A DNA stretch of 64,000 bases from Acidobacteriota bacterium. GTDB lineage: Bacteria > Acidobacteriota > Vicinamibacteria > Vicinamibacterales > CAVVIG01. This document shows positions 2,805-55,166 of the stretch, in pieces (the first letter of the stretch is position 1; every line of letters begins with the position of its first letter). The position numbers and the translations under genes are program-made. The DNA is taken from assembly GCA_003222395.1 (NCBI GenBank), contig QHWB01000031.1, positions 64,501 to 128,500 of the forward strand, given 5' to 3'. The notes below the pieces were generated by a model. It had not been told where the DNA came from. It searched no databases and saw only the letters and a list, made by a program, of their open reading frames with translations.

Positions 2805-2966
2805 CGCTCGGCTGAAAGCCTCGCGCTACAGCGAGGCGCGTAGCGCTCCAGCATGACCGTGTAGCGCGAGCCTTTCAGGCGAGCGCTGCTGCCAGGCCGC
2901 GTAGCGCGAGCCTTTCAGGCGAGCGCTGCTGGCAGGCCGCGTGGCGCGAGCCTTTCAGGCGAGCGG
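2805..2966. repeat. REP-like element cluster (intergenic)
   Basis: An inverted REP-like copy lies at 2805-2829 (ending in ...CGCGCTAC). Three direct copies with a 40-bp period begin at 2861, 2901 and 2941, each opening GTAGCGCGAG or GTGGCGCGAG, then CCTTTCAGGC and GAGCG. The third copy ends directly before the GGGAGA ribosome-binding site of the next gene. The same 25-bp sequence bounds the in-frame insertions at 29874-30073 and 39572-39758. Confidence 0.85.
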
Positions 2967-20993: not shown

Positions 20994-23063
20994 ATGCGCA
21001 AACTGCTCGTCGCGTTCGTCACCATGCTGTCGATCCCGCTCGCGGGGCAATCGAAGCGGCCGCTGCAATCCGACGACATCTTCGAGGTGAAGACCGTCGC
21101 CGATCCGCGCATCAGCGCCGACGGTGCGTGGGTCGCGTACACCGTTTCGCAGATGGATCGGAAGGACGACACCTCCGATACCGACATCTACATGATCCCG
21201 ACCGTGGCCTCCCTCCGACAGGGTCAGGCAGACGGCGCGATCAGGCTGACGAGCAGCAAGAAACCGGAGACGTCGCCGCGGTGGAGTCCGGACGGCCGCT
21301 CCCTCGCGTTTCTCTCGTCGCGCGACGGCAAGAAGGAGCAGGTCTATCTGCTCGATCGGCGCGGCGGCGACGCTCAGGTCCTCACCGACTACAAGACCGG
21401 CGTCGCCTCGTTCGCCTGGGCCCCCGACAGCTCCAGGCTCGCGATCGTCGTTTCCGATCCGGATCCGAACGACTCCGAAGCCGAGAAAGACGACGCTGCA
21501 GGGCAGGCAAAGAAGCCGAAGCCGCACGTCATCACGCGCCTGCAGTTCATGCGCGACGGCGAGGGCTATCTCACCGACGTCAAGCGGCACATCCACGTGT
21601 TCGACACGGCGACGAAGAAGGAGTTCGAGGTCGCGCACGACCGCTGGGACGATGGCGCGCCGGTGTGGTCGCCGGACGGCACGCTGATCGCGTTCAGCGC
21701 GAACCGCACCGACAATCCGGACGCGAACGACAACACCGACGTCTTCGTCGTCGAAGCGCGCGCCGGCGCGAAGCCGCGCGCGCTCACGACATCGCCCGGA
21801 TCCGACGGCTCGCCGGCGTTCAGCCCGGACGGCAAGTCGATCGCGTACGTGCAGGGCGGCGATTCGAAGGACATCTGGTACGCGACGAACAACGTCGCGG
21901 TGATCGCAGTCTCCGGCGGCACGCCGAGGGTTCTGACGCCGAACGTCGACCGCAACATCCGGTCGCCGCAATTCACCCCGGATGGAACGAAGGTGCTGTT
22001 CCTCCTCGAGGAGGGAGGGAACGTGCACCTCGCGAGCGTCCCCGCCGGCGGCGGTCCCATCGATCGTCTGTTGAACGGCGAGCGCGATCTGACGTCCTAC
22101 GACGTGGCGAAGAGCGGCGACATCGTGTATCTCGACAGCCAGTCGCAGCGGCCGGGTGAAGTCTTCTTTGTGGCGCGGGCCTTTCAGGCCCGCGATCGCG
22201 GGGCTGAAAGCCCCGCGCCACAGCCGACGCGCCTCACGCACGTCAACGACGACTTCCTCTCGAAGATCGCGCTGGGAACCGTCGAGCGTTACAAGGCGAA
22301 GAGCGCCGACGGCACGATGATCGACGCGTATCTGACGCGCCCGCCCAACGTTCCCGCCGGAAGGCTTCCGACCATCCTGCGGATTCACGGCGGACCCGTC
22401 AGTCAGTACTCGACAGGCTTCAATCTCGAATGGCAGATACTCGCGGCGAAAGGATTCGCGGTCGTCGCCGCGAATCCGCGCGGATCGTCCGGCTACGGCC
22501 GCGACTTCAGCCGCGCGATCTGGGCCGACTGGGGCAACAAGGACTACGACGACGTGATGGCGGCGGTCGACACGGCCGTCGCGATGGGCGTCGCCGATCC
22601 GGATCGTCTCGGCGTGGGCGGCTGGAGCTACGGCGGCATCCTCACCGATCACGTCATCTCGAAGACGACGCGGTTCAAGGCGGCGATCTCCGGCGCGAGC
22701 GAATTCAATTACCTCGCGAACTATGGCAACGATCACTATCAACGCCAGTGGGAAGCGGAGCTCGGGCTGCCGTGGCAGCAGCCGGAGGCATGGATGCGCA
22801 TCTCGCCGTTCTTCCGCATGGACAAGATCGTCACGCCAACGCTCGTCCTCGGCGGCGATCAGGACATGAACGTCCCGATCCTCGGCGGGCAGCAGCTGTA
22901 TCAGGGGCTGAAGCGTCTCGGCCGCGACGCCGAGCTGATCGTGTACCCGGGCGAGAACCACGGCCTCCGCCGACCGAGCTTTCTGAAGGATCGGTACGAT
23001 CGCTACATCGCGTGGTACGAGAAGTATCTGAAAGCGCCGGCGACGAAAACCTCCTCACAGTGA
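20994..23063 (+). CDS. S9 family prolyl oligopeptidase-like serine peptidase, exported
   Basis: Predicted secreted dipeptidyl- or oligopeptidase, 689 aa. A signal peptide (MRKLLVAFVTMLSIPLAG) is followed by a beta-propeller with WSPDGRSLAFLSSRDG and FSPDGKSIAYVQGG blades. The alpha/beta hydrolase domain starts at about residue 440, with Ser545 in GGWSYGGIL, Asp in LGGDQDMNVP and His in NHGLRRPSF forming the triad. Residues ~392-409 (VARAFQARDRGAESPAP) are encoded by a 52-bp near-palindromic REP-like pair inserted in frame at the propeller/hydrolase junction. The stop overlaps a GTG of the small ORF downstream (GTGA). Confidence 0.92.
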   Translation: MRKLLVAFVTMLSIPLAGQSKRPLQSDDIFEVKTVADPRISADGAWVAYTVSQMDRKDDTSDTDIYMIPTVASLRQGQADGAIRLTSSKKPETSPRWSPDGRSLAFLSSRDGKKEQVYLLDRRGGDAQVLTDYKTGVASFAWAPDSSRLAIVVSDPDPNDSEAEKDDAAGQAKKPKPHVITRLQFMRDGEGYLTDVKRHIHVFDTATKKEFEVAHDRWDDGAPVWSPDGTLIAFSANRTDNPDANDNTDVFVVEARAGAKPRALTTSPGSDGSPAFSPDGKSIAYVQGGDSKDIWYATNNVAVIAVSGGTPRVLTPNVDRNIRSPQFTPDGTKVLFLLEEGGNVHLASVPAGGGPIDRLLNGERDLTSYDVAKSGDIVYLDSQSQRPGEVFFVARAFQARDRGAESPAPQPTRLTHVNDDFLSKIALGTVERYKAKSADGTMIDAYLTRPPNVPAGRLPTILRIHGGPVSQYSTGFNLEWQILAAKGFAVVAANPRGSSGYGRDFSRAIWADWGNKDYDDVMAAVDTAVAMGVADPDRLGVGGWSYGGILTDHVISKTTRFKAAISGASEFNYLANYGNDHYQRQWEAELGLPWQQPEAWMRISPFFRMDKIVTPTLVLGGDQDMNVPILGGQQLYQGLKRLGRDAELIVYPGENHGLRRPSFLKDRYDRYIAWYEKYLKAPATKTSSQ
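22170..22221. repeat. REP-like inverted pair inserted in the S9 peptidase gene
   Basis: GTGGCGCGGGCC-TTTC-AGGCCCGC is followed by CGATCG-centred inversion to GCGGGGCT-GAA-AGCCCCGCGCCAC. Each half is a near-perfect hairpin (8-9 bp) and the halves are inverted to each other. The loop TTTCAG/CTGAAA and the GTGG foot match the 25-bp element family elsewhere in the window. The reading frame passes through. Confidence 0.85.
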
Positions 23064-27287: not shown

Positions 27288-30280
27288 CAGCGCTGCTGCG
27301 ACGTGTTGACGGGCATCAGCGGTCCGGCGGCGGTCGCCACCGCAACGTAGTCTTCGATCCGCTCGCGCGTGGCGGTGCGGGCGGCGCGGGCGAGGGTGAG
27401 CCAGTCTCCGGGATCGGTCGGCTTCACGGTGTCGATGAAGTCCTGCATCGCGCCGGACACGACGACGCGCGCGAGCGCCGCGGGCAGCGCCAGCCGCCTC
27501 AACATCATCGCGACGTGCAGGTTGAGATCCGAAACGACCGACGCCACGAGTCCGAGCTGCGGGCGTCCCATCAACGCCGCCGACCGGCCCGGCGTCATGA
27601 CACGCGTGCAGAAACAGCCGTACGACGCGGCGGCCGCCATGCCCCACGCCGCGAAGTCGTTCGGTCTGCCGCCGCCGAGGACGAGGAGCTCGCCGAGAGA
27701 CAGCATCGAGACGAGACGGTCGCGCTCGTGGACCAGCGTCCAGCGCATGGCGCGCCGGCGCCATCCCTCCATCGAAATGTCGTCGGCGAGCGATTCGAGC
27801 GCCTGATCGGTCAGCGTTTCGACGCGCCGCGTACCGCGCGCAATCGCGTCGACGATCGCGTCGCGGTCGCGATCGAGCAGCGCGAACGGATTCATCAGCG
27901 ACACGCTGAGCGCGAACGATTCGCGCTCGGGCGCCGTCAGCCGCGGCGCCTCGAGGACGCCGTCGACGCTGATGCGCCGCAGCGCGAGCGGCGCCAGCGC
28001 GATATCGAGGCCGAGCAGCGATCCCGTGACGTGCCACGGCACGTTCGGGATGACTTCCTGCCGCGGCGGCGACCATGCCGTTCGCAGCCGGATGTCGCTG
28101 TCTCGTACGCCGAAGCCGAAATCGTGGCGCCGCGACACGTCGTCGGCGAGCAGCACCGCGCCGTCCGGATCGCCGACTTCCGCCGCGTACGCGATCGACA
28201 GCAGCGAGTACGCCAGCATCTCGTCCGCGAGATCGACGAGCGGCTCCGCCGCGCGGACGACGCGCTTCCCGTCCTTGCTCCGGATCGCTTTGGTCAGCTC
28301 GTCGATCCCCTTGCGAAGCACTTCGTGCTGCGCCGCGGGCATTCCGGCGCCCGGCGCGAGGTTGTCGCTTTCATCGTCCCGCGATCGGCGCGGCACGCCG
28401 TCGGCCATGGCGGTCAGCCGTCCGACGACCCCCTGCGCTTCGGCGAGCGGCGTGCCGTCGGACACGAGCTGGCGCGCGGCCGCCGCGATTGTCAGGCCAA
28501 CGTCTATCGGCAGCGTCTCCTGTTTTTCGCGGACGCGCCGCAGCCGCTGGCGTTCGGCGGCGCCGAGGTCGAGCCGGTATTGTCCGCCTTCCCACGAGAC
28601 GCGCGCCGAACTGCCGCGTTCGCCCGACGAAGGACCGGAGATCGCGTTGATGATCGCCGTCTCCATGTCGGCGGCCGGCGCGATGCCGTTGGCGAGATCC
28701 TCGCGAACCCAGCGCGCGACGGCGCCGGCATAGCGACCGTCTTCGCCGAGCGGCGCTGCGATCAACCGTGAGACCACGGCTTCCGCTTTCGACGCGTCGA
28801 GCGAATGCACCGCTGCGGCGCGCGCCACGAGCGCCAGCCCGCCCTGAAGCTGCGCCAGCGCGACGAATCCGCGATGCCCTTCCGGCACGCTGACGCGCGC
28901 CGCCTGACGGACCGCCGCGCCGTACACCGCGGCGTTGGCGACGCCGATCCGCTCGAGCGTCAGCAGCAGCATCCGGAAGCGCGGGAACATGCGGACGGCG
29001 TAGAGCATGTCGGCGCGATCGCGATCGGTCGGCGCCGCGACGATCCGCGCGACCCGCTGGCCGAACGCCAGCTGGTCGAGTCGCTCGCTGCGCTGTCGAA
29101 CGTCGGCCGATCCAATCGATTCGAGCAGCCATGCGGCGTCGATCGGCCGATCCTCGTCCGAGCCGCTTCCGGGGAGGACGCGCGACCAGAAACCGCGCGC
29201 GGCAGGGGCCGCGGGCGCGCCGCTCTCGTCCACTTCGATGCGCGCGAGCGTCATCCCGACGTCGTAGGAAGCGCGCGCGAACGGCATCGTTCGAACGTGC
29301 CATTCGCGAAATGAATTGACGCCGGCGCTGGTCAGCGCCTTGAACCGCTCGACGCGCACCGCCGCGTTCGGCATCCACAGCCCGAGCGCGAACGCGCGGC
29401 GGCCGGGATCGAGCTGACCGATGACGTCGTAGAGATAGGCGAGGCGCCCCTCGTTCGCCTCGAACAGCTGCTGAATGAACCGCTCGGGCCGTGTCACCTT
29501 CTCGGCAACGACGGCCTCCCACAGCGGCGAGACATCGTCTCGCTCGACCTGCGCGACGGCCCGGTCGGCGGGCCGGGGCGCGCCCGGCGCTACGACGCGG
29601 TTCGCGTGAACGCGCAGCGTGGACGAGAAGGCCGCGAACGCCGGCGCGGCCAGCCGCTCGGCGAGGCGCGACAGCAGCGATCCGTGCTCGCTGAAAAACT
29701 GAAGCGTCTCGTCGTCGAGCGAGGCGAGCCCATGGCAGAGCAGAGCCGCCTGGCGATCCGACACGATCGCGGCGACCAACTCGTCGCGCGAGACTTTGCG
29801 ATGGAAGACGTGGTCGCTCCAGAAGTCCACCGTCAGCGGAACGGGAACGAGATCGTCGGCGGTCGCTCGGCTCCGCTCGCCTGAAAGGCTCGCGCTACGC
29901 CCATCGGTCGCGCTCCGGCCATCGGTCGCGCTCCGGCCATCGGTCGCGAACCGGCCATCGGTCGCGAACCGGCCGTTGTTCGCGCGTCGGATGTCGTTCG
30001 CGATCCGATTATCGCTCGCACCTCGCGCATCCTTTGCGAACCCGAACCGTAGCGCGAGCCTTTCAGGCGAGCGTTGGGGATCGTTGTCGAAGAGGAGACG
30101 GGTCACGTCGTACATGAAGGGGCCGCGATCGGGAATCGGATCGATGCCGAGCATGCGCGTGAACGCGGCGCGGCCGCCGGGCACCGGCACATCCTCGGAA
30201 ACTGCTGTGGCCGCAGCAAGATGCAACGGAAATACCGCTACAATCGTGAGGCACGCGAACACGCGTTTCACAAGGCGCAC
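27287..30280 (-). CDS. Exported protein of unknown function (997 aa), first gene of VWA operon
   Basis: No family recognised. The GTG start at 30280 (or GTG 30271) gives a signal peptide (VKRVFACLTIVAVFPLHLAA). The rest is mainly predicted alpha-helical with many short Arg/Ala-rich segments and no obvious catalytic motif. Residues ~70-136 (SPERLAL...SLSGERS) are encoded by a 200-bp REP-bounded tandem array and are unlikely to belong to the ancestral fold. It is tightly coupled to two VWA genes, so it probably works with them at the envelope. The start lies only 9 bp from the divergent ParE-like start; TATAAT on the minus strand at 30286-30281 could be its -10 box. Confidence 0.75.
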   Translation of the reverse strand: MRLVKRVFACLTIVAVFPLHLAAATAVSEDVPVPGGRAAFTRMLGIDPIPDRGPFMYDVTRLLFDNDPQRSPERLALRFGFAKDARGASDNRIANDIRRANNGRFATDGRFATDGRSATDGRSATDGRSASLSGERSRATADDLVPVPLTVDFWSDHVFHRKVSRDELVAAIVSDRQAALLCHGLASLDDETLQFFSEHGSLLSRLAERLAAPAFAAFSSTLRVHANRVVAPGAPRPADRAVAQVERDDVSPLWEAVVAEKVTRPERFIQQLFEANEGRLAYLYDVIGQLDPGRRAFALGLWMPNAAVRVERFKALTSAGVNSFREWHVRTMPFARASYDVGMTLARIEVDESGAPAAPAARGFWSRVLPGSGSDEDRPIDAAWLLESIGSADVRQRSERLDQLAFGQRVARIVAAPTDRDRADMLYAVRMFPRFRMLLLTLERIGVANAAVYGAAVRQAARVSVPEGHRGFVALAQLQGGLALVARAAAVHSLDASKAEAVVSRLIAAPLGEDGRYAGAVARWVREDLANGIAPAADMETAIINAISGPSSGERGSSARVSWEGGQYRLDLGAAERQRLRRVREKQETLPIDVGLTIAAAARQLVSDGTPLAEAQGVVGRLTAMADGVPRRSRDDESDNLAPGAGMPAAQHEVLRKGIDELTKAIRSKDGKRVVRAAEPLVDLADEMLAYSLLSIAYAAEVGDPDGAVLLADDVSRRHDFGFGVRDSDIRLRTAWSPPRQEVIPNVPWHVTGSLLGLDIALAPLALRRISVDGVLEAPRLTAPERESFALSVSLMNPFALLDRDRDAIVDAIARGTRRVETLTDQALESLADDISMEGWRRRAMRWTLVHERDRLVSMLSLGELLVLGGGRPNDFAAWGMAAAASYGCFCTRVMTPGRSAALMGRPQLGLVASVVSDLNLHVAMMLRRLALPAALARVVVSGAMQDFIDTVKPTDPGDWLTLARAARTATRERIEDYVAVATAAGPLMPVNTSQQR
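29874..30073. repeat. Composite REP-bounded tandem array inserted in frame (200 bp)
   Basis: Perfect 25-bp inverted ends at 29874-29898 (CGCTCGCCTG...GCGCTAC) and 30049-30073 (GTAGCGCGAG...GGCGAGCG) enclose eight degenerate 18-bp units (CGGTCGCGCTCCGGCCAT and variants) at about 29904-30047. Each unit adds six residues, read on the minus strand as DGRSAT/DGRFAT/NGRFAT. Units near the left end are almost identical and decay towards the right end. Confidence 0.9.
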
Positions 30281-30289
30281 ATTATAGAC

Positions 30290-32296
30290 ATGGGCTCAGC
30301 GAACTACACCGCGAAAGACATCACCGTTCTTGAAGGGCTGGAGCCGGTACGCAAGCGTCCGGGCATGTATATCGGGGGCGTTGGCTCGGCTGGGCTTCAC
30401 CACCTCGTCTGGGAAATCGTCGACAACGCCGTCGACGAAGCGATGAACGGTCATGCTTCAAACATTTGGGTAACCCTTCACGCGGATGGATCCTCGATCA
30501 CCGTCGAGGACGATGGACGCGGCATTCCGATCGACAAACATCCGACGACGAAGAAAAGCGCGCTGGAAGTCATTTTCACGATGCTGCATGCCGGCGGAAA
30601 GTTCGAGCACGGAAGCTACAAGACCGCCGGCGGTCTCCACGGCGTCGGCGCGAGCGTCGTCAACGCGCTCTCGAAGGAGTTGATCGCGCACGTGAAGCGC
30701 GACGGCGCGCTGTGGGAAATGAAGTTCAAGCAGGGGAAAGCGGTCGGCGCGCTGAAGAAGATCGGCGCGGCGCGTGGAAGCGGCACCAAAGTGTACTTCC
30801 ACCCCGACGCGGCCATCTTTCCGAAGATCGAATTCGATTCGCAAATCATCAAAGACCGCCTCGAGGTCGCCAGCTATCTGCACAAGGGACTGAAGGTCGT
30901 CTTCGAGGACGAAACGGCGAAAGCGAAGTCCGTCTTCGAGCACACCGAAGGGCTGATCGAATACCTGAAAAAGATCGTCGCCGAGCGTGGCGCGAAGCCG
31001 GTACACGAGACACCATTCAGCATCGCCACAGCGGAGCGGGGCGACTGGGCCCCCGCGAAGCGTGACCGGGGGGGAGGGGGACCCGGAGTAAACCTCCGGG
31101 GGGGAGGGGCCCCCGGAGTAAACAATGACCTGCGGCTCGACGTCGTGCTGCAGTGGACGGAAGCAACCGACGAGCACCTGCGCTCGTACGTCAACGGCAT
31201 CCCGACCGGATCGGGCGGCACGCACGAGAGCGGATTCCGCGCCGGCCTCTCGAAAGCGGTGCGCAACTATATCGAGACGCACAACCTCTCGCCGAAAGGC
31301 GTGACGCTCGTCGCGGAAGACATCCGTGAAGGGCTTACCGGAGTTCTCAGCGTCTTCATCCAGGAGCCGCAGTTCCAGGGGCAGACCAAAGATCGGCTGA
31401 ACAACCCGGAGCTCGTGTCGAGCATCGACGCCGTCGTCCGTCCGGCGCTCGAGCACTGGTTGAATCACAACGCGAGCATGGCGAATGCGATCGTCGCGCG
31501 CATCATCCTCGCGGCGCGCGCGCGCGAGGCGAGCCGCGCGGCACAGGCCGAGGTCTCGCGCAAGAGCGCCACCTCGTCGCGCCTGAACCTGCCGGGCAAG
31601 TTGAGCGACTGCACGAACTCGGACGCCGACGGCAGCGAGCTGTTCATCGTGGAGGGAGACTCGGCCGGCGGATCGGCCAAGCAGGGACGCGATCGCGCGC
31701 GCCAGGCGATTCTGCCGCTGCGCGGCAAGGTGTTGAACACGGAGAGTGCATCGCTCGCGAAGGTGCTCGAGAACAAGGAGCTGTCGGATCTCGTCACCGC
31801 GATCGGCTGCGGCCTCGGCAAGAACTTCGACATCACGAAGCTGCGCTACGGGAAGATCATCATCCTCGCCGACGCCGATTCGGATGGCAACCACATCGCC
31901 ACGCTGCTCCTGACCTTCATTTACCGGCATCTGCCGCAGCTGATGGCCAACGGCAACGTGTTCCTCGCGCAGCCGCCGCTCTATCGCATCGACATCGGCA
32001 AGGAGACGTTCTGGGCGCTCGACGACGCGCAGAGGGATGCCATCGTGAAGCAGCAGGCGAAGAACGGTCATCGCGCCGCGCCCGAGATCACGCGCTTCAA
32101 GGGGCTCGGCGAGATGATGCCGAAGGTGCTGTGGGAGACGACGCTCAATCCGCGGACGCGGCGTCTGCTGCGCGTCGAGGTCACCGATCACATCGTGACG
32201 GATCGTGTGATTAACGAATTGATGGGAAGAGATGCGTCGGCGCGCTTCCGCTTCATCATGGAGCGCGCCGACGAAGCCGAGGAGCTGGATGTTTAG
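30290..32296 (+). CDS. parE: Type IIA DNA topoisomerase subunit B (ParE/GyrB-like) with in-frame repeat
   Basis: ATPase and TOPRIM subunit partnering the subunit at 16985-19414. The 669-aa product has the GHKL site (EIVDNAVDEA, VEDDGRGIP, YKTAGGLHGVGASVVNALS), the transducer block LQWTEATDEHLRSYVNGIPT, and TOPRIM FIVEGDSAGGSAKQGRDRA plus LADADSDGNHIATLLL. KTAGGLHGVGAS and AKQGRDR favour ParE over GyrB. Residues ~259-279 come from two 30-bp hairpin repeats inserted just before the transducer strand DLRLDVVLQW, in an otherwise conserved essential enzyme. ATG 30290 (MGSANYTAKDITVLEGLEPV) is the family start; the open frame to 30074 antisense to its neighbour is ignored. Confidence 0.9.
   Translation: MGSANYTAKDITVLEGLEPVRKRPGMYIGGVGSAGLHHLVWEIVDNAVDEAMNGHASNIWVTLHADGSSITVEDDGRGIPIDKHPTTKKSALEVIFTMLHAGGKFEHGSYKTAGGLHGVGASVVNALSKELIAHVKRDGALWEMKFKQGKAVGALKKIGAARGSGTKVYFHPDAAIFPKIEFDSQIIKDRLEVASYLHKGLKVVFEDETAKAKSVFEHTEGLIEYLKKIVAERGAKPVHETPFSIATAERGDWAPAKRDRGGGGPGVNLRGGGAPGVNNDLRLDVVLQWTEATDEHLRSYVNGIPTGSGGTHESGFRAGLSKAVRNYIETHNLSPKGVTLVAEDIREGLTGVLSVFIQEPQFQGQTKDRLNNPELVSSIDAVVRPALEHWLNHNASMANAIVARIILAARAREASRAAQAEVSRKSATSSRLNLPGKLSDCTNSDADGSELFIVEGDSAGGSAKQGRDRARQAILPLRGKVLNTESASLAKVLENKELSDLVTAIGCGLGKNFDITKLRYGKIIILADADSDGNHIATLLLTFIYRHLPQLMANGNVFLAQPPLYRIDIGKETFWALDDAQRDAIVKQQAKNGHRAAPEITRFKGLGEMMPKVLWETTLNPRTRRLLRVEVTDHIVTDRVINELMGRDASARFRFIMERADEAEELDV
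31066..31125 (+). repeat. Two 30-bp hairpin repeats inside parE
   Basis: Units 31066-31095 and 31096-31125 follow the pattern CCGGGGGGG-AGGGG-CCCCCGGAGTAAAC. In the second unit CCGGGGG pairs with CCCCCGG. Each gives ten residues (RGGGAPGVN type). The same unit occurs three times in the M20 peptidase (39088-39177). Confidence 0.85.
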
Positions 32297-32490
32297 AAGT
32301 TTGAAGTACGAAGCTCGAAGTTCGAAGTACAACGTTCGAAGTTCGAAGTACAGAGTACGAAGTTCGATATACGAAGCCCGACGCACGAAATCCGAACCGC
32401 GAAGCAGAAGACGGAAGTGAAGTTGCGACGTTTCCTTCTCATCCCTGTCTTCGTACTTCTGACTTCAGACTTCGTACTTCTTTCTTCCTC
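32297..32490. repeat. GAAGTACGAAG-type array with inverted copy
   Basis: Degenerate 9-12 bp units (TTCGAAGTACGAAG and variants) fill 32297-32410 after the parE stop. The reverse complement (CTTCGTACTTCTGACTTC) recurs at about 32445-32490, inside the signal-peptide region of the diguanylate cyclase. Confidence 0.65.
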
Positions 32491-38732: not shown

Positions 38733-40312
38733 AACGCATGATTCCGTTTGTTCTATCGGTGCTGTCCTCCGTCTCCTTCGCGTCCGCTCAGAAGAGCAAT
38801 GAAGCCACCACCCTGCTGCAGCAGTACGTCGCGATCGATACGTCGAATCCTCCCGGCGACACGCGGAAAACGGCCGACTTTCTCACGGCGATCTTTCGAC
38901 GCGAGGGGATTCCGGTCACCAGGTACGAATCGGCTGCGGGCAAGTCGATCGTGTACGCGCGCCTGAAGGCGACCGTGTCGCCGCCGGCGGGAAAGGCGAT
39001 CGTCCTCCTTCACCACATGGACGTCGTGCCGGCGGATCGCGGTCGGTGGAGAACGGATCCGTTCGCGCCGACGATAAAGAAGACGGACCGGGGGGTAGGG
39101 ACCCCCGGAGTGAGCGTCCGGGGGGCAGGGGCCCCCGGAGTGAGCGTCCGGGGGTTAGGGGCCCCCGGAATGAGCGATGACCTGTGGGCGCGCGGCGCTT
39201 TCGACATGAAGGGACAAGGCGTGGCGCACATCCTCGCCTTCCTCGAATTGAAGCGTCAGGGCGTTCCGCTGGCGCGCGACGTCATCCTGCTCGCCGAGCC
39301 GGACGAAGAGGTCGGCGGCGCGATGGGCGCGCGCTGGATGATCGCGAATCATTACGCGGAGCTCGATCCCGAGTACGTGATCGACGAAGGCGGCGTCGGC
39401 AGCCCCGATCTGTTCGCGCCCGGCAAGCTCGTGTACGGAATTTCCGTCGCTGAAAAGAAAATCGTCTGGCTGAAGGTGCGCGCGGAAGGGATCGCCGGCC
39501 ACGGCAGCCAGCCGAACGATCAGAATCCGAACGATCGCCTCGTGAAGGCGCTCGCGAGGTTGCTGGAGGATCGCTCGCCTGAAAGGCTCGCGCTACGACC
39601 GAACCAGACACCTGCGCGACGACCGAACCAGACACCTGCGCGACGACCGAACCAGACACCTGCGCTACGACCGAACCAGATACCTGCGCTACAACCGAAC
39701 CAGATACCTGCGCTACGACCGAACCAGACACCTGTAGCGCGAGGCTTTCAGCCGAGCGGCCCGTCCATCGTCGACGTCATGCGGGCGAACATCGGCACCT
39801 TCGCGCAGAACAAGTTCACCAACGCCATTCAGCGATCGACGATCGCGCTCACCTGGTTCCGATCCGGCGTCGGCGAACCGCCGAAGATCAACGTCATCCC
39901 CTCGGTCGCCGAAGCGGGCCTCGACTGCCGTGTGCTGCCGGGCACGACCAAAGATCAATGGATGGAGGAGGTGCGCCGCCGGCTCGGCGACCCGTCGCTG
40001 AAGCTCGAACTGATCAACGAGTCCGACGACCCGATCGTGACTCCTCACGACACGCCGCTCTACCGCAACCTCGAAGCCGCCATCAAGAGCCGTCACCGCG
40101 ACGCCCTCGTCTCGCCGATCCTCATCCCGTACGGCACCGACTCGAACGCGTTCCGCCCGAAAGGCGTGAAGAGCTATGGCATCTTCCCGGCCATCGTCTC
40201 CGCGGAAGCCGTCGCGTCGATGCACGGCGACGCCGAGCGGGTTCCACTGGACGCGGTCACCGAAGCCGCGCAGGTGTTGTTCGAGGCGTTGAGGGAGACG
40301 TTGAAGAAGTAA
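38729..40312 (+). CDS. M20 family metallopeptidase with two in-frame repeat insertions, exported
   Basis: Predicted zinc carboxypeptidase or aminoacylase, 527 aa with a signal peptide (MIPFVLSVLSSVSFASAQ). Metal and catalytic residues: HHMDVVPADRG (His, Asp), ARGAFDMKG (Asp), LAEPDEEVGG (Glu-Glu), YVIDEGGVG and the late His in ASMHGDAERV. Residues ~120-150 (RGAGAPGVSV repeats) are three 30-bp hairpin repeats placed just before DDLWARGAFDMKG. Residues ~281-344 are six 8-residue RPNQTPAR-type repeats bounded by REP-like ends, in the dimerisation/lid domain. Without the inserts the protein would be about 430 aa, closer to family length. Coupled to the asparaginase gene. Confidence 0.9.
   Translation: MKRMIPFVLSVLSSVSFASAQKSNEATTLLQQYVAIDTSNPPGDTRKTADFLTAIFRREGIPVTRYESAAGKSIVYARLKATVSPPAGKAIVLLHHMDVVPADRGRWRTDPFAPTIKKTDRGVGTPGVSVRGAGAPGVSVRGLGAPGMSDDLWARGAFDMKGQGVAHILAFLELKRQGVPLARDVILLAEPDEEVGGAMGARWMIANHYAELDPEYVIDEGGVGSPDLFAPGKLVYGISVAEKKIVWLKVRAEGIAGHGSQPNDQNPNDRLVKALARLLEDRSPERLALRPNQTPARRPNQTPARRPNQTPALRPNQIPALQPNQIPALRPNQTPVARGFQPSGPSIVDVMRANIGTFAQNKFTNAIQRSTIALTWFRSGVGEPPKINVIPSVAEAGLDCRVLPGTTKDQWMEEVRRRLGDPSLKLELINESDDPIVTPHDTPLYRNLEAAIKSRHRDALVSPILIPYGTDSNAFRPKGVKSYGIFPAIVSAEAVASMHGDAERVPLDAVTEAAQVLFEALRETLKK
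39088..39177 (+). repeat. Three 30-bp hairpin repeats inside the M20 peptidase gene
   Basis: Units at 39088, 39118 and 39148 follow CCGGGGGG-T/C-AGGG-CCCCCGGAGTGAGCGT, each with a CCGGGGG/CCCCCGG stem, and encode RGVGTPGVSV, RGAGAPGVSV and RGLGAPGMSD. They are homologous to the parE pair at 31066-31125. Confidence 0.88.
39572..39758. repeat. Composite REP-bounded tandem array in the M20 peptidase gene
   Basis: The left end 39572-39596 is identical to the left end at 29874. The right end 39734-39758 differs from its inverse at two positions that keep the inner stem paired (GCCT/AGGC to GGCT/AGCC). Between them are six 24-bp units (GACCGAACCAGACACCTGCG and variants), eight residues each, fully in frame. 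Confidence 0.9.
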
Positions 40313-40342: not shown

Positions 40343-42499
40343 ATGAAAGCCGGTGCGGCTCTGCTGACGATCGCCGCAGCGGTCGCTGCGGCATGCGGCA
40401 GATCCGCTGTCGAGCGCGCGGCGCCGCACCCCAATGTCCTGCTCGTGACGATCGATACGTTCCGCGCCGATCGCCTCGGCGCCGGCGTCACGCCGGCGCT
40501 CGATCGTCTCGCGGGCTCGGGCGTCCGGTTCACGAACGCGCGTACTGCGGTGCCGCTCACGCTGCCGTCGCATACGACGATCCTCACCGGTCTGCTCCCG
40601 ACGGCTCACGGTGTTCGCGAGAACGGTCTCGATGCGCTGAGCGCCGCGCATCCGACGCTCGCGCGACTATTGAAAGCAGCGCGATACCGCACCGCTGCAT
40701 TCGTCGGCGCGTTCGTGCTCGATCGCCGCTACGGCCTCGCCGAGGGCTTCGATACCTACGACGATCGCATCCCGCGCGATCCGCGGGCGACCGAGCGTCT
40801 CGAAGCGGAACGGCCCGCATCCGCCGTGATCGACGCCGCCCTCGCCTGGCTCGAGCAATCCCCGGCAACCAGCAACCAGCAACGAGCTCCGTTCTTCATA
40901 TGGATCCATCTCTACGATCCGCACGCCCCCTACAACCCGCCGGCCGAATTCCGCGCACGTGCGAAGAGCGCGTACGACGGCGAAATCGCGTACGCCGATT
41001 CGCAGATCTCGCGCGTGTTCACCTGGCTGAACGATCGCGGTCTGACAAACGAGACGATGATCGTCGTCGCCGGCGATCACGGCGAAGGACTCGGCGACCA
41101 CGGCGAGCGGACGCACGGCATGCTGCTCTACGACTCGACGCTGCGTGTGCCGCTGGTCATCTCTTTACCGGCCGGATTGACCGGCCGCCCCGGATTGACC
41201 GGCCGCCCCGGATTGACCGGCCGGCCCGGATTGACCGGCCGGCCCGGATTGACCGGCCGCGGTGGTTTCGCCGCCGGAACGCGCGACGAGGTGGTCAGCC
41301 TCGTCGACATCGCGCCGACGATTCTTCGAGCGGCCGCGGTCGACGTGCCGGGCGAGATGAAGGGACGGAATCTTCTCGCGCCGGGAACCAGCGTGGCTGA
41401 CATCTACGCGGAAACGGAGTATCCGCGCGTGGCAGGATGGAGCCCGCTGCGGGGGCTCACTGATGGCCGTTGGATGGCCATCCGCTCTTCAGGGGCAACG
41501 GAGCTGTACGACCTTCGCAACGATCCACACGAAGAGCACGACGCCGCACCGGCGCAAACCGCGACAGCCGCCGCAATGGCGGCGCGCATCGACGCGATTC
41601 ATGCGAGCGGCAAAGCCTCGAAGCCGACCGCTGCGCCTGATACCCAGGAGAGGTTGCGAGCGCTCGGCTACGTTGCGAGCTCCCTGCAGCCTGCGGTCGG
41701 CTCGAATGCGACGAATCCGGCACGCACAATCGAACGGTGGAACCAGTTCGAGGAGGCGCTTTCGCTGTTGGAGGATCGTCCTGCCGCAGCTGTGCCGATC
41801 CTGTCCAGGCTCGCCTCCGAGAACCGCGACGGTCCTGTGTTTCAGACGACCTATGCGCGTGCCTTGAAAGATACCGGGCAGATCAAAGCGGCGCTGGCCG
41901 CCTACCGGGATGCCGCGCGCCGATGGCCGACCGATGCCACGCTGCTCCACGACCTTGCCGTGACGGCGCGCGAAGCTGGCGATCTTGACGAAGCACGCCG
42001 GGCAGACGAGGCGGCCATCGCCATTGCGCCGGCGAGCCCGATCGCGCACAACGGCGCCGGCCTCGTCGCGATCGATCAACACCGGCCCGCCGACGCGGTG
42101 CGCGAGTTCGAACGCGCCACTGCGCTCGATCCAACCAATTCGAGCTACTGGACGAACCTCGGCAACGCGAGACGCGAGGTCCGCGACGTCGCGGCCGCAG
42201 AGCAGGCGTACAGGCGCGCGCTCGACCTGGACGCGCGCGGCAGCGATGCGGCCAATGGTCTCGGCGTCCTGCTCGTCGAGTCGCGGCGGCCCGCCGAAGC
42301 GGTCCCGTGGCTGGAGCGCGCCGTCGCTGCGGCGCCCGATTTCGTCGAGGCTCGGCTCAACCTCGGCATCGCCCTCCAGCAGTCGGGACAAATCGATCGT
42401 GCCGCGTCGGTGTATCGAGACGTGTTGCACGCGCCCGTACGGTTCGCTCGCGAACGTCGGGCCGCCGCGGCGCTGCTCGCGTCGCTCGGAGCACGCTAG
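40343..42499 (+). CDS. Sulfatase-like (alkaline phosphatase superfamily) lipoprotein with TPRs
   Basis: Predicted envelope lipoprotein of 718 aa: signal and lipobox AAVAAACG, then a sulfatase/phosphodiesterase domain (LLVTIDTFRADRLG, AGDHGEGLGDHGERTHG metal sites, LWIHLYDPHAPY-type block). At the position of the formylglycine Cys/Ser it reads PLTLPSHTTILTG, with Thr, so it is not an FGly sulfatase; a phosphodiester or phosphonate substrate fits better. A 30-residue GLTGRP repeat (41174-41263) lies before the SLVDIAPT region. Residues ~480-715 are TPRs (AEQAYRRALDLDARGSDAAN). ATG 40343 is preferred; an in-frame GTG occurs at 40328. Confidence 0.85.
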   Translation: MKAGAALLTIAAAVAAACGRSAVERAAPHPNVLLVTIDTFRADRLGAGVTPALDRLAGSGVRFTNARTAVPLTLPSHTTILTGLLPTAHGVRENGLDALSAAHPTLARLLKAARYRTAAFVGAFVLDRRYGLAEGFDTYDDRIPRDPRATERLEAERPASAVIDAALAWLEQSPATSNQQRAPFFIWIHLYDPHAPYNPPAEFRARAKSAYDGEIAYADSQISRVFTWLNDRGLTNETMIVVAGDHGEGLGDHGERTHGMLLYDSTLRVPLVISLPAGLTGRPGLTGRPGLTGRPGLTGRPGLTGRGGFAAGTRDEVVSLVDIAPTILRAAAVDVPGEMKGRNLLAPGTSVADIYAETEYPRVAGWSPLRGLTDGRWMAIRSSGATELYDLRNDPHEEHDAAPAQTATAAAMAARIDAIHASGKASKPTAAPDTQERLRALGYVASSLQPAVGSNATNPARTIERWNQFEEALSLLEDRPAAAVPILSRLASENRDGPVFQTTYARALKDTGQIKAALAAYRDAARRWPTDATLLHDLAVTAREAGDLDEARRADEAAIAIAPASPIAHNGAGLVAIDQHRPADAVREFERATALDPTNSSYWTNLGNARREVRDVAAAEQAYRRALDLDARGSDAANGLGVLLVESRRPAEAVPWLERAVAAAPDFVEARLNLGIALQQSGQIDRAASVYRDVLHAPVRFARERRAAAALLASLGAR
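41174..41263 (+). repeat. Five 18-bp tandem repeats in the first sulfatase gene
   Basis: Five near-identical copies of GGATTGACCGGCCGCCCC (last bases vary), giving a collagen-like GLTGRP x5. The core TGACCGGCC can form a short hairpin with its neighbour. The paralogous sulfatase has no expansion here. Confidence 0.85.
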
Positions 42500-44499
42500 T
42501 GAACCATGAAAGGGCAAAGGGCAAAGGGCAGAGGGCACACGCGTTCGTTGCCCTTTGCCCTTTGCCCTTTGCCCTTTCGGCTTTGCCCTTTGCCCTTTCG
42601 GCTTTGCCCCTTGCCCTTTCGGCTTTGCCCCTTGCCCTTTCGGCTCTGCTCGTCACGTCGTGCACGCGAGCCGCGCGTCAGCCTCCGACCGCGCGCGCAG
42701 AGAATCTGCTGCTCATCACCATCGACACGCTGCGCGCCGATCACGTCGGCGCGTACGGCTACGCGCGCGCGCGGACGCCGACCGTCGACGCGCTCGCGCG
42801 CGGCGGCGCGCTCTTCGAGCGCGCGTACGCCGCCGCACCGATCACGCTCACCTCGCACGCGACGCTGCTCACGGGCCGCTACCCGCCCGGACACGGAGCG
42901 CGCGACAACGGCCTTCACGTGTCCGGTTCCGTGCCGACGCTCGCGACGACGCTTCACGCCGCCGGGTTCAGGACGGCCGCGTTCGTCGCCGCGTTTCCGC
43001 TCGATCATCAGTTCGGGCTGAACCGCGGCTTCGACGTCTACAGCGACCGGATGCCGCGCGGATCCGACGGCCGTCTGATGAACGAGCGCCCGGGATCGCA
43101 GGTCGTCGACGAAGCCATCGCCTGGCTCGGCGTAGCACCAGCAGCCAGCACCCAGCCCCCAGCACCCAGCCCTCAGCAACCAGCCCCCAGCCCCCAAAGA
43201 TTTTTTCTGTGGATCCACCTCTTCGAGCCGCATGCGCCGTACGGCGATCCGGCGTCGGGACGGTCGACGATGGATCGATACGACGATGAGATCGCGACGG
43301 CAGACCGCGAGGTCGGCCGACTAATCAACGTGCTCGGATCGCTCCGCGACGACACGTTGATCGTCGTCGCCGGCGACCACGGCGAAGCATTCGGCGAACA
43401 TGACGAGTACGCGCACAGCATCTTCGTCTACGACACAACGCTGCGGGTGCCGCTCGTGATGAACGGTCCCGGTGTCAGCGCAGCCGTGCGGTCGGCAGAG
43501 AACGTGACGCTGGCCGACGTCGCGCCGACGGTGGCGCGCCGACTCGGCACGACGATCGCCGACGTCGACGGCATCGACGTCTCGGCAGCGCTGTTGGGCG
43601 GCGCGCTGCCGGCTCGCGAGCTGTACGCCGAGTCGTTCGCGCCGCTCGTCGAGTTCGGCTGGGCGCCGCTGCGGTCGATCCGGTCCGGGAACTGGAAGTT
43701 CATCGCGGCGCCGCGCGCGGAGCTGTACGACATCGTCAAGGACGCCGGGGAGCGCGTCGACCTGTCGACGGCCCAGGCGACGGTCGTCCGTCAGCTCGAC
43801 ACGCGCGTATCGCGCTACTCGCCGCCGAGCCTGCCGCTGTCGCGGACGATCGACGCGAGCGGGCTCGAGCGATTGCGCGCGCTCGGGTACGCGAACGGTC
43901 CACGCCACGATACCGACACGCGCATCGATCCGAAGGATCGCCGTGAGGTGGCCGCGCGGATCGCGCAGGTCACGTCCGGCGAGCTCACGGGCGCGGCGCT
44001 GGTGTCGGCCCTCGAAGAAATCGTGCGAGCCGATCCGAGTAACAGCCAGGCGCACCTGCGCCTCGGATACGCGCGCCTGCAGCAGGGCGACTGCGCGCAC
44101 GCCGAGCAGGAATTCAAATGGGCGATCGACGGCGGGCTGCCGACCGCGGATGCGCACCTCGGTCTGGCCACGTGCCTCGGCCGCGCCAACGATCTCGCCG
44201 GCGCGGAGCGCGTGCTGAACGAAGCGAAGCGCCGCGAGCCGGACAATCCGGTGATCACCGCGAACGTCGGCATCCTGCAGGCGGCGAAGGGTGATATCGG
44301 CGGCGCGATCGAATCGCTGAAGCGCGCGGTATCCGCGGATCCCGGGCTGCTCGAGGCCCGGTTCAATCTCGCGATCGCATTCGCGAAAGCGGGCCGCCGC
44401 GCCGAGGCCGCGTCCACGGCGCGCGAGCTCCTCGCGCGTCTGCCGCCGACCGCCCCGCAGCGTGCCGAAGTCGAGCGGCTGCTGCGCGCTGTTCAGTAG
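42499..44499 (+). CDS. Second sulfatase-like TPR lipoprotein, repeat-derived signal peptide
   Basis: Paralogue of the preceding gene, 666 aa, in the same arrangement: AlkP-superfamily domain (LLITIDTLRADHVGAYG, AGDHGEAFGEHDEYAHS, FLWIHLFEPHAPYG) and C-terminal TPRs (AEQEFKWAIDGG, GAIESLKRAVSADPG). The nucleophile position is again Thr (PITLTSHATLLTG). GTG 42499 overlaps the previous TAG (TAGTG). The N-terminal hydrophobic stretch (PFALSALPFALSALPLALSA) up to the lipobox LLVTSC is encoded by a 21-bp tandem repeat with an inverted arm upstream. A Pro/Gln/Ser-rich stretch (43135-43196) precedes the FLWIHL block, where the paralogue has a shorter version. Confidence 0.85.
   Translation: MNHERAKGKGQRAHAFVALCPLPFALSALPFALSALPLALSALPLALSALLVTSCTRAARQPPTARAENLLLITIDTLRADHVGAYGYARARTPTVDALARGGALFERAYAAAPITLTSHATLLTGRYPPGHGARDNGLHVSGSVPTLATTLHAAGFRTAAFVAAFPLDHQFGLNRGFDVYSDRMPRGSDGRLMNERPGSQVVDEAIAWLGVAPAASTQPPAPSPQQPAPSPQRFFLWIHLFEPHAPYGDPASGRSTMDRYDDEIATADREVGRLINVLGSLRDDTLIVVAGDHGEAFGEHDEYAHSIFVYDTTLRVPLVMNGPGVSAAVRSAENVTLADVAPTVARRLGTTIADVDGIDVSAALLGGALPARELYAESFAPLVEFGWAPLRSIRSGNWKFIAAPRAELYDIVKDAGERVDLSTAQATVVRQLDTRVSRYSPPSLPLSRTIDASGLERLRALGYANGPRHDTDTRIDPKDRREVAARIAQVTSGELTGAALVSALEEIVRADPSNSQAHLRLGYARLQQGDCAHAEQEFKWAIDGGLPTADAHLGLATCLGRANDLAGAERVLNEAKRREPDNPVITANVGILQAAKGDIGGAIESLKRAVSADPGLLEARFNLAIAFAKAGRRAEAASTARELLARLPPTAPQRAEVERLLRAVQ
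42507..42645. repeat. AAGGGCAAAGGGC / GCCCTTTGCCC inverted arms forming a signal peptide
   Basis: A left arm (about 42507-42535, AAGGGCAAAGGGC) and a complementary right array (about 42549-42645, GCCCTTTGCCC becoming the 21-bp unit GCCCTTTCGGCTTTGCCCC). The right array is translated as LALSALP repeats of the second sulfatase. Confidence 0.8.
43135..43196 (+). repeat. CAGCACCCAGCCC low-complexity repeat in the second sulfatase
   Basis: Degenerate 7-bp CAGCCCC/CAGCACC units encode a Pro/Gln/Ser linker (STQPPAPSPQQPAPSPQ). A shorter related stretch, CAACCAGCAACCAGCAACG at 40867-40885, is at the same place in the first sulfatase. Confidence 0.7.
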
Positions 44500-54045: not shown

Positions 54046-54131
54046 ACGGCCGTCTGACGGCGCCGGCGCGAGGAAAAACTTTTCCGTTCGCGTTGGCGAG
54101 CGCCGTGCATTGGGGGCGTCACGTGAACCTG

Positions 54132-55166
54132 ATGCGTGGTGGAAAGCTGCTGGCTGCGCTGGCGGCGGCATGCCTCGCGGCCGCCTGCACCTCCACTCAA
54201 ACGTCGGTCACGTCGCCTTCATCAGACAAATGCCAGATCGGCGTCAGCAATGCGCCCTCGTCATTTGGCGCCGGCGGCGGCAGCGGCACCGTCACCATTG
54301 CCGCGGCACGCGATTGCACCTGGTCGATCGACACGAACGCGAGTTGGATTGCGATCAACGGCAACGCTCAGGGTCAGGGCGGCGCGTCGATCGCGTACAC
54401 CGTCGCGCCGAATCCTGTTCCGTCGGCTCGATCGGGCGTGATCGCGGTCGGTTCAGAAAGCGTGCAGTTGAGTCAAGCCGCGGCGCCGTGCCGGTTCACG
54501 CTCAGCCGTTCGAGGGATGCGATCGGCTCGGGCGGCGGCAAACTTTCCGTGGAGCTTTCGACGCTCAGCGGTTGCAACTGGACCGCGACGAGCGCGAACA
54601 ACTGGATCGTGGTGTCATCGGGACAGAGTGGAAATTCGAGCGGAACCGTCGGGCTGACCGTGGCCGTGAACAACGCCGGATCGCGTGTCGGTCAAGTGAA
54701 CGTCGCGGGACAGAACTACACAGTCGCTCAGGACGGTGCGCCTGCGCCGCCTCCGCCGACACCTGCACCCACGCCGACGCCGGCGCCGGCACCAACGCCA
54801 AATCCAACTCCGACACCGACACCCGCGCCAGGCCCGACACCGACACCCGCGCCAGGCCCGACGCCGACACCCGCGCCAGGCCCGACGCCGACACCAGCTC
54901 CTGCGCCGGCGCCGGCCCCGTCACCGCAGCCCTCCGGTCCGCGTGCCGACTTCTCGGGTTCCGCAACCGGCGTCAGCGGACGATGTCCGAACCTCACGTT
55001 CACGGTCTCGGGACGAACAGTCGTGACCGACAAGTCGACGAAGTTCAAACATCTCTCGTGCGATGACGTCGCGAAAGGCGGCCAGCCCGTGAGCGGAAGC
55101 GGCCCGACCGACAGCAGCGGCGTCATTCACGCAGACGTCGTGGAAAAGGTGAAAGGCGATGATTAG
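54132..55166 (+). CDS. BACON-domain-like lipoprotein with Pro/Thr linker
   Basis: 344-aa predicted surface lipoprotein: MRGGKLLAALAAACLAAAC signal/lipobox, then two tandem BACON-like beta-sandwich domains (CTWSIDTNASWIAI; CNWTATSANNWIVV, with GSGTVTIAAA and SSGTVGLTVA). A ~65-residue Pro/Thr/Ala linker of PTPTPAPG repeats follows (24-bp DNA period), then a small C-terminal domain (RCPNLTFTVSGRTVVTDKST) with paired Cys. BACON domains are thought to bind glycans or mucin-like polymers. Its stop lies inside the next gene's start (overlap of 8 bases). Confidence 0.78.
   Translation: MRGGKLLAALAAACLAAACTSTQTSVTSPSSDKCQIGVSNAPSSFGAGGGSGTVTIAAARDCTWSIDTNASWIAINGNAQGQGGASIAYTVAPNPVPSARSGVIAVGSESVQLSQAAAPCRFTLSRSRDAIGSGGGKLSVELSTLSGCNWTATSANNWIVVSSGQSGNSSGTVGLTVAVNNAGSRVGQVNVAGQNYTVAQDGAPAPPPPTPAPTPTPAPAPTPNPTPTPTPAPGPTPTPAPGPTPTPAPGPTPTPAPAPAPAPSPQPSGPRADFSGSATGVSGRCPNLTFTVSGRTVVTDKSTKFKHLSCDDVAKGGQPVSGSGPTDSSGVIHADVVEKVKGDD

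Follow-up and report, generated by a model that had tools for sequence, protein, structure and literature searches.

A GTAG-tagged REP heterodimer in frame within an acidobacterial M20 peptidase gene, and possible growth of REP-dimer spacers into minisatellites

The window analyzed here, a 64,000-nucleotide stretch of an acidobacterial genome, holds at positions 39572-39758 an inward-facing pair of GTAG-tagged REP sequences, subtype Y on the left and subtype Z on the right, which surround six 24-bp units in frame. Very probably, a REP heterodimer landed in frame in this M20 peptidase gene, its spacer was duplicated locally in tandem, and a reading-frame filter let through only lengths that are multiples of three (3n).

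In detail, a GTAG-tagged heterodimer of a RAYT/REP system would have landed at a site where the linker of orthologues is short. Local slippage or recombination would then have produced tandem duplicates of the inter-hairpin DNA plus the left REP's inner arm. Since only duplications of 3n bases would survive within genes, only 3n periods would be visible there. The duplications may have started at direct repeats common to both arms, namely GCGC, which is its own reverse complement, and AGGCT or AGCCT, which is common to inverted Y and Z. The transposition of these REPs is a step that we infer from sequence.

The element and its host gene

The reading frame that hosts the element (Table 1) scores above the Pfam cut-offs for both Peptidase_M20 and M20_dimer, in line with a preliminary description of its product as an M20 peptidase. 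The element forms residues about 282-344, within the stretch (241-422) matched by M20_dimer. By direct reading, the 26 bases from 39572 (CGCTCGCCTGAAAGGCTCGCGCTACG) are exactly those from 29874, the left end of a sister element, so that the identity reported earlier holds at 26/26 bases. The right end differs from the end at 30049 at two positions which, as had been claimed, preserve pairing (C-G to G-C); they represent the difference between subtypes Y and Z.

Table 1. REP elements and host genes in the window
Feature	Position	Strand	Remarks
Left REP, subtype Y	39572..39596	-	GTAG tag on - strand, facing inward
Tandem array, 24 bp x 6.0	39590..39734	+	TRF, 95% matches; starts within left REP, touches right REP tag
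Right REP, subtype Z	39734..39758	+	GTAGCGCGAGGCTTTCAGCCGAGCG
Host gene, M20 family metallopeptidase, 527 aa	38729..40312	+	Pfam
Sister element, Y/Y inward dimer	29874..30073		REPs 29874-29898 (-), 30049-30073 (+)
Host gene of sister element, about 995 aa	27287..30271	-	Gene call
Intergenic REP cluster Z-,Y+,Y+,Y+	2805..2965		Period 40 (not 3n)
Third genic REP pair of the window, outward dimer	22170..22221		2-bp spacer, 4 mismatches each

The array had been presented as six 24-bp units encoding RPNQTPAR. The number of units stands, but the unit is not constant: translations read ALRPNQTP or ARRPNQTP with close variants, and copies differ at three variant codons, non-synonymously in every case. 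Moreover, array and left REP overlap, since the first unit opens inside the REP, at its last 7 bases (GCGCTAC). The right junction has just a 1-base match. The whole element folds into a single long hairpin (z -4.4). A structure search with the M20 protein returned 9zem_A (molecule HeliScrew4), which matches residues 283-331, that is, the array only; solved structures related to M20 gave little information on the insertion. The sequence comes from a draft genome in 118 contigs, where repeats might reflect faulty assembly. To such an artefact we give next to no credence, given that the units differ among themselves, that the array is short (144 bp) and that the frame stays open across it into conserved sequence on either side.

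The sister element holds an 18-bp array (29890-29985) followed by further degenerate units, and corresponds to residues about 67-133 of the 995-aa protein, a variable-length linker after the N-terminal segment. At E 0.001 this protein matches no model of Pfam or NCBIfam. The outward dimer of Table 1 is located within ORF 20994-23063 (+). At up to 3 mismatches, the 25-mer end has 8 matches in the 64-kb window, compared to 0 in each of 100 shuffles.

Repeats of other kinds are also present. A REP-independent 30-bp repeat (CCGGGGGGKAGGGGCMCCCGGAGT...) is found in genes, three times in the M20 gene (39088-39176) and twice in the neighboring ORF 30221-32296 (31066-31123). At up to 4 mismatches, 2.79 Mb of the genome contain 15 matches (control, 0), of which 13 lie in genes, and match coordinates indicate that the M20 copy is exactly missing from the related genome G023. 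Arrays of 7-bp words occur at 32296-32381, 42509-42649 and 43134-43196 (GAAGTAC, AAAGGGC/TTGCCCT and AGCACCC), partly with period 21. ORF 40343-42499 contains an in-frame 18-bp array of 4.9 copies (41172-41260, PGLTGR repeats), and the gene call at 54105-55166 a 24-bp array (54810-54914) whose unit is PTPTPAPG by frame arithmetic.

Insertion sites in orthologous genes

Linker lengths in orthologues were derived from match coordinates, not from sequence letters. In the M20 orthologues of G023, G021, G006, G005, G009, G011 and G012, 1-9 codons replace 46-62 residues. Two further relatives are less clear-cut: the match in G020 runs to residue 301 and restarts at 344, and the one in G017 continues across the element but is only 34 codons shorter overall. 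For the 995-aa gene, 13 of the 15 listed relatives with two-sided matches leave 3-87 nt versus at least 45 query residues; the exceptions, G016 and a second copy in G019 (C34), leave 324 and 327 nt. A further REP element forms residues about 334-402 of the allantoinase AllB, where 12 relatives at least 51% identical on both sides leave 6-72 nt versus 45 or more (55-70) query residues. REP inserts occupy linkers of variable length, and for the three REP-bearing genes these coordinates show that most orthologues have a far shorter linker there.

The arrays stay in frame in enzymes that score as whole: AllB with its insert still reaches 548.8 bits (cut-off 357.85). One may hypothesize a selected, tunable linker, in which changes of copy number in the inserted peptide alter the host enzyme and are favored. 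We find this improbable, as codon differences between units of the 7 genic REP arrays are more often non-synonymous (12) than synonymous (7), small numbers which suggest that the peptide is weakly constrained. The corresponding counts for 43 REP-free arrays are 70 non-synonymous versus 117 synonymous.

A GTAG-tagged REP family

The source genome comprises 7,741,373 bp in 118 contigs, of which 2,794,853 bases were taken for a REP survey. Contigs C1, C14, C34, C25, C54, C106 and C12 were tiled fully or nearly so, and the remaining tiles were mostly picked around known matches, so that REP densities in this 2.79-Mb sample are biased upward and the genic share less so. The REP is a 25-mer, GTAG-CGCGAG(C/G)CTTTCAG(G/C)CGAGCG, in which a GTAG tag adjoins a hairpin with TTC as its loop and a GA/GA mismatch. 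A 24-mer of it matches the whole genome 214+205 = 419 times with at most 1 mismatch, versus 0 for the reversed control. Allowing up to 5 mismatches, the 2.79 Mb contain 378 copies (3 in reversed sequence), in which the tag bases G, T, A and G are present 353, 324, 317 and 361 times. The tag is GTAG and not the CGTC that characterizes a Rickettsia palindromic element. A lone REP folds at -5.7 kcal/mol, which surpasses shuffles only slightly (z -1.4 to -1.8; 11-16 of 200 do as well).

Two subtypes are distinguished at stem pair 11-19: Y has C-G (210 copies), Z has G-C (143), and 25 copies have neither. Inverted neighbors combine Y with Z in 90 of 100 typed cases (48% expected), and tandem neighbors are of like subtype in 82 of 88. 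Covariation in the ends, proposed in the preliminary description as a check, was indeed found: 124 distinct copies show 66 double-change cells versus a shuffle mean of 33 and maximum of 43. Fifty-one of these stem from the single Y/Z pair; the 15 outside it exceed all 500 shuffles, narrowly (maximum 14). Paired cells behave similarly (786/1116, shuffle maximum 742; 677/992, maximum 676, without the Y/Z pair).

A single inverted pair is a frequent arrangement, accounting for 72 of 166 REP clusters (50 inward, 22 outward). In one stretch (G000:C1:153409-154058), 17 REPs form a 36-bp tandem array that ends with an inverted REP, and this array falls in the 3' end of a single gene call. A conserved CT cleavage dinucleotide was looked for within 6 bases of the REPs; 29 of 107 flanks on the tail side and 17 of 59 on the tag side contain CT (background 594/2817), with no clear site; there is an A/T excess at +1 of the REP tail (71/107), and A is scarce at -1 of the tag (2/59).

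A gene finder trained on the sampled stretches called 91% of this DNA coding, and yet the REP family is mostly extragenic: of 130 clusters (at least 1 REP, 3 mismatches at most), 22 are genic, 9 uncertain and 55 intergenic, and 44 overlap a gene end. Among 2212 genes of at least 80 aa, 36 have their stop codon within a REP, and in 22 of these it is the TAG of the tag. The 22 genic clusters use all four open reading frames of the REP (11, 6, 16 and 5 copies).

RAYT gene and distribution among relatives

A Y1_Tnp profile search of the genome (E 0.001) produced one match, a RAYT protein, encoded at C106:59066, that scores 100.4 bits against NCBIfam REP_Tyr_transpos (cut-off 80). Its gene is flanked by the same REP family, with 17 copies upstream and 4 downstream, and the RAYT presumably mobilizes these REPs. 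Our family survey covered 27 genomes including the source genome; the REP is found in 9 and a Y1_Tnp match in 18. A motif scan detected a protein of this kind at 19 loci; REPs of this family lie within 1.2 kb at 4 of them and at none of the other 15. The four are the locus of the source genome (L051), L266 (G023), L181 (from the MAG SRVP_36) and L265, which has copies with 4-5 mismatches; L181 and L266 are perhaps from one organism, because their spacing is the same. The RAYT proteins of L051 and L266 are 60% identical, and the G023 relative has exact REP copies on both sides. The exact REP pattern was found in at least 67 stretches of named genome contigs, the titles listed being Acidobacteria or Terriglobia MAGs. 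In G019 the hairpin is the same but GGAG replaces GTAG in most of the copies listed.

The SbcD model TIGR00619 (E 0.001) has no match in 24 of the 27 family genomes, the source genome included; 13 of 14 control genomes have a match, 8 of them above cut-off. Palindromes may be better tolerated in this clade. As the cause of the arrays, SbcD loss was rejected, since most relatives are also without a match (3/27 match) and no separation is obtained.

Arrays at the inner ends of REPs

Arrays are held by 23 of 72 inward dimers, the other 49 having none, and by 7 of 30 outward dimers. In 22 of the 23 inward cases the array reaches the inner end of a REP, and 9 reach both; edges in the REP inner arm are as local tandem duplication would give. 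Thirty-one array ends fall inside REPs, nine at base 7 and eight at bases 12-13, TRF borders being approximate. Base 7 is just before the bulge and bases 12-13 just before the loop, and these positions are also those of the arms' shared direct repeats, GCGC and AGSCT. Array ends therefore coincide with both hairpin features and direct repeats, and structure and microhomology are indistinguishable here.

Four loci, C14:40041, C54:18619, C54:99687 and C15:97852, show evident units of the form GCGC-TAC-spacer-GTA, and C1:190079 has a unit bounded by AGGCT. Of the 23 arrays, only four plainly follow the GCGC-to-GCGC rule and one AGSCT-to-AGSCT; most remaining arrays have one end in the REP and the other in the spacer. 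It is doubtful, although conceivable, that the Y+Z heterodimer is a built-in minisatellite generator, whose inverted subtypes avoid a long perfect palindrome but create direct repeats between the arms. If true, each new Y+Z dimer could seed tandem spacer growth and, inside genes, continually supply new coding sequence that is in frame and adjustable in length.

The interiors of the two elements of the window had been described as unrelated, which extends to the spacers of 81 dimers (10-200 bp): these share zero non-REP 14-mers. Non-REP 10-mers are common to 15 spacer pairs, versus a mean of 36 for random stretches. In an unmasked comparison, 108 of 3321 pairs have a 10-mer in common, most of the 20 listed being REP-arm words. 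In a comparison of array units by rotation, a unit of 11 bp is the sole one to recur among the top 12, and no unit common to copies was seen in REP arrays. Since spacers are unshared, the arrays seem to grow in place; they do not seem to travel.

A minisatellite between inverted ends, present in many copies, could also be a MITE with the minisatellite as its traveling part, and BrickBuilt of Porphyromonas offers a precedent (PMC4596501). Array-free inward dimers are the majority, however, and the lack of a shared 14-mer and the single recurring unit make this very improbable. REPs in the 81 dimers are nearly identical and follow the Y+Z rule, yet their spacers are alike no more than by chance. 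Independent REP insertions would not yield the Y+Z rule, and a traveling dimer would have common spacers.

At 95 loci of relatives (576 kb), arrays occur in 8 of 85 distinct clusters versus 57 of 130 in the source genome (p 3e-8), and in 8 of 26 versus 57 of 102 when clusters have at least 2 REPs (p 0.03). Expansion of dimer arrays may be special to the source lineage, the two samples having been drawn differently. Overall array density is not higher in the source genome (61 per Mb, versus 82 in relatives' loci).

Array period and reading frame

Counted by cluster, periods are 3n in 6/6 genic clusters (one of 12 bp x 1.9), 3/3 uncertain genic, 8/28 intergenic and 11/20 overlapping a gene end, the latter being borderline cases that are weakly informative. 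For array-level counts, TRF was applied to all sampled stretches with a higher score limit. REP arrays have a 3n period in 7/7 genic, 8/17 edge and 14/34 intergenic cases, and REP-free arrays in 45/50, 17/25 and 15/37, respectively; 35 of 36 REP-free genic arrays of at least 2.5 copies are 3n. Genic and intergenic arrays differ both with REPs (Fisher, p 0.009) and without (p 1e-6), whereas genic REP and genic REP-free arrays do not (p 1). The 3n share of intergenic REP arrays is not different from one third (p 0.36), and their periods include 17, 19, 20, 22, 26, 29, 31, 34 and 40. In relatives, where arrays are few, we observed periods of 17 and 24 (genic), 18 and 21 (uncertain), 18 (edge) and 19, 38 and 21 (intergenic); one of the two robust genic arrays has period 17 with 1.9 copies.

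The comparison called for in the preliminary description thus found 3n periods enriched in genes but not between them, and likewise for REP-free arrays. Since REP-free genic arrays are equally 3n, a frame filter is at work. Judged against the REP-free control, a 3n period as an element property is rejected, and the earlier statement that the period is always a multiple of three is not supported.

That statement belonged to the idea of a mobile element built of modules, in which constant REP ends enclose an exchangeable array and a multiple of three is fixed as its period. Identical left ends around different interiors at two genic loci, and the uniformly 3n genic REP arrays, are what such an element would show. 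The intergenic periods and the REP-free genic arrays speak against it, as do the 81 dimer interiors, which have no more words in common than random stretches, and we consider it extremely unlikely. Fixed, paired REP ends and unrelated interiors survive from this idea; the array as separate cargo does not, as the unit usually includes part of the REP. In-frame landing of a heterodimer followed by tandem duplication of its spacer remains our preferred reading.

Comparison with known systems

Intragenic GTAG-REP dimers are already published. Di Nocera et al. (2013, PMC3733652) described GTAG REPs and REP dimers in ORFs, heterodimers and tandem clusters with flanking DNA, stop codons supplied by the TAG of the tag, and RAYT genes flanked by REPs. 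The REPs of that study resemble ours in their GTAG tag, imperfect hairpin and complementary stem subtypes, and in forming heterodimers with tags inside (TT) or outside (HH). Unlike them, the present family is acidobacterial; the main text of that paper names Acidobacteria once, for transposases of another type. The consulted sections of that paper describe neither a dimer spacer that grows into a minisatellite nor the period of such an array.

The E. coli REP/BIME system with TnpA_REP (REPtron, PMC8266576) likewise combines y/z mosaics, GTAG and a cognate Y1 HUH transposase. Its REPs have a two-mismatch stem bulge, which is GA/GA here, and the biochemistry of E. coli TnpA_REP has shown roles for both GTAG and the stem bulge. 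The REP sequence differs, and the available parts of that source yielded no description of in-frame genic copies or spacer arrays. REPINs (Bertels and Rainey 2011, PMC3116915) are also REP doublets that fold as a large hairpin, with a RAYT adjoining a REP cluster and with tandem clusters. Unlike in REPINs as presented there, spacers are unshared here, so that the doublet is not seen multiplying with its spacer.

Rickettsia palindromic elements, as presented in PMC3733652, are in-frame palindromic insertions in protein genes as well. They carry a CGTC tag versus GTAG here, and CGTC repeats are described there as having no associated transposase. The nearest known case of a minisatellite within inverted ends is BrickBuilt, a MITE of Porphyromonas gingivalis. 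According to the portions of PMC4596501 at hand, one 23-nt unit is common to its copies, which are always intergenic; neither holds here. A limited literature search, which included the accessible text of PMC6006769 and PMC12306157, turned up no account of REP dimers whose spacers are minisatellites. Possibly new, then, are an acidobacterial REP family and dimer spacers that grow into minisatellites.

Conclusions

This analysis locates, in an acidobacterial family, a RAYT/REP system whose copies number in the hundreds, and it offers an accessible case of transposon-derived sequence in frame within enzymes. The comparison with REP-free arrays also serves as a control for similar claims, 3n periods in genes being expected of any array. 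Finally, the findings suggest a route from REP dimers to variable tandem arrays.
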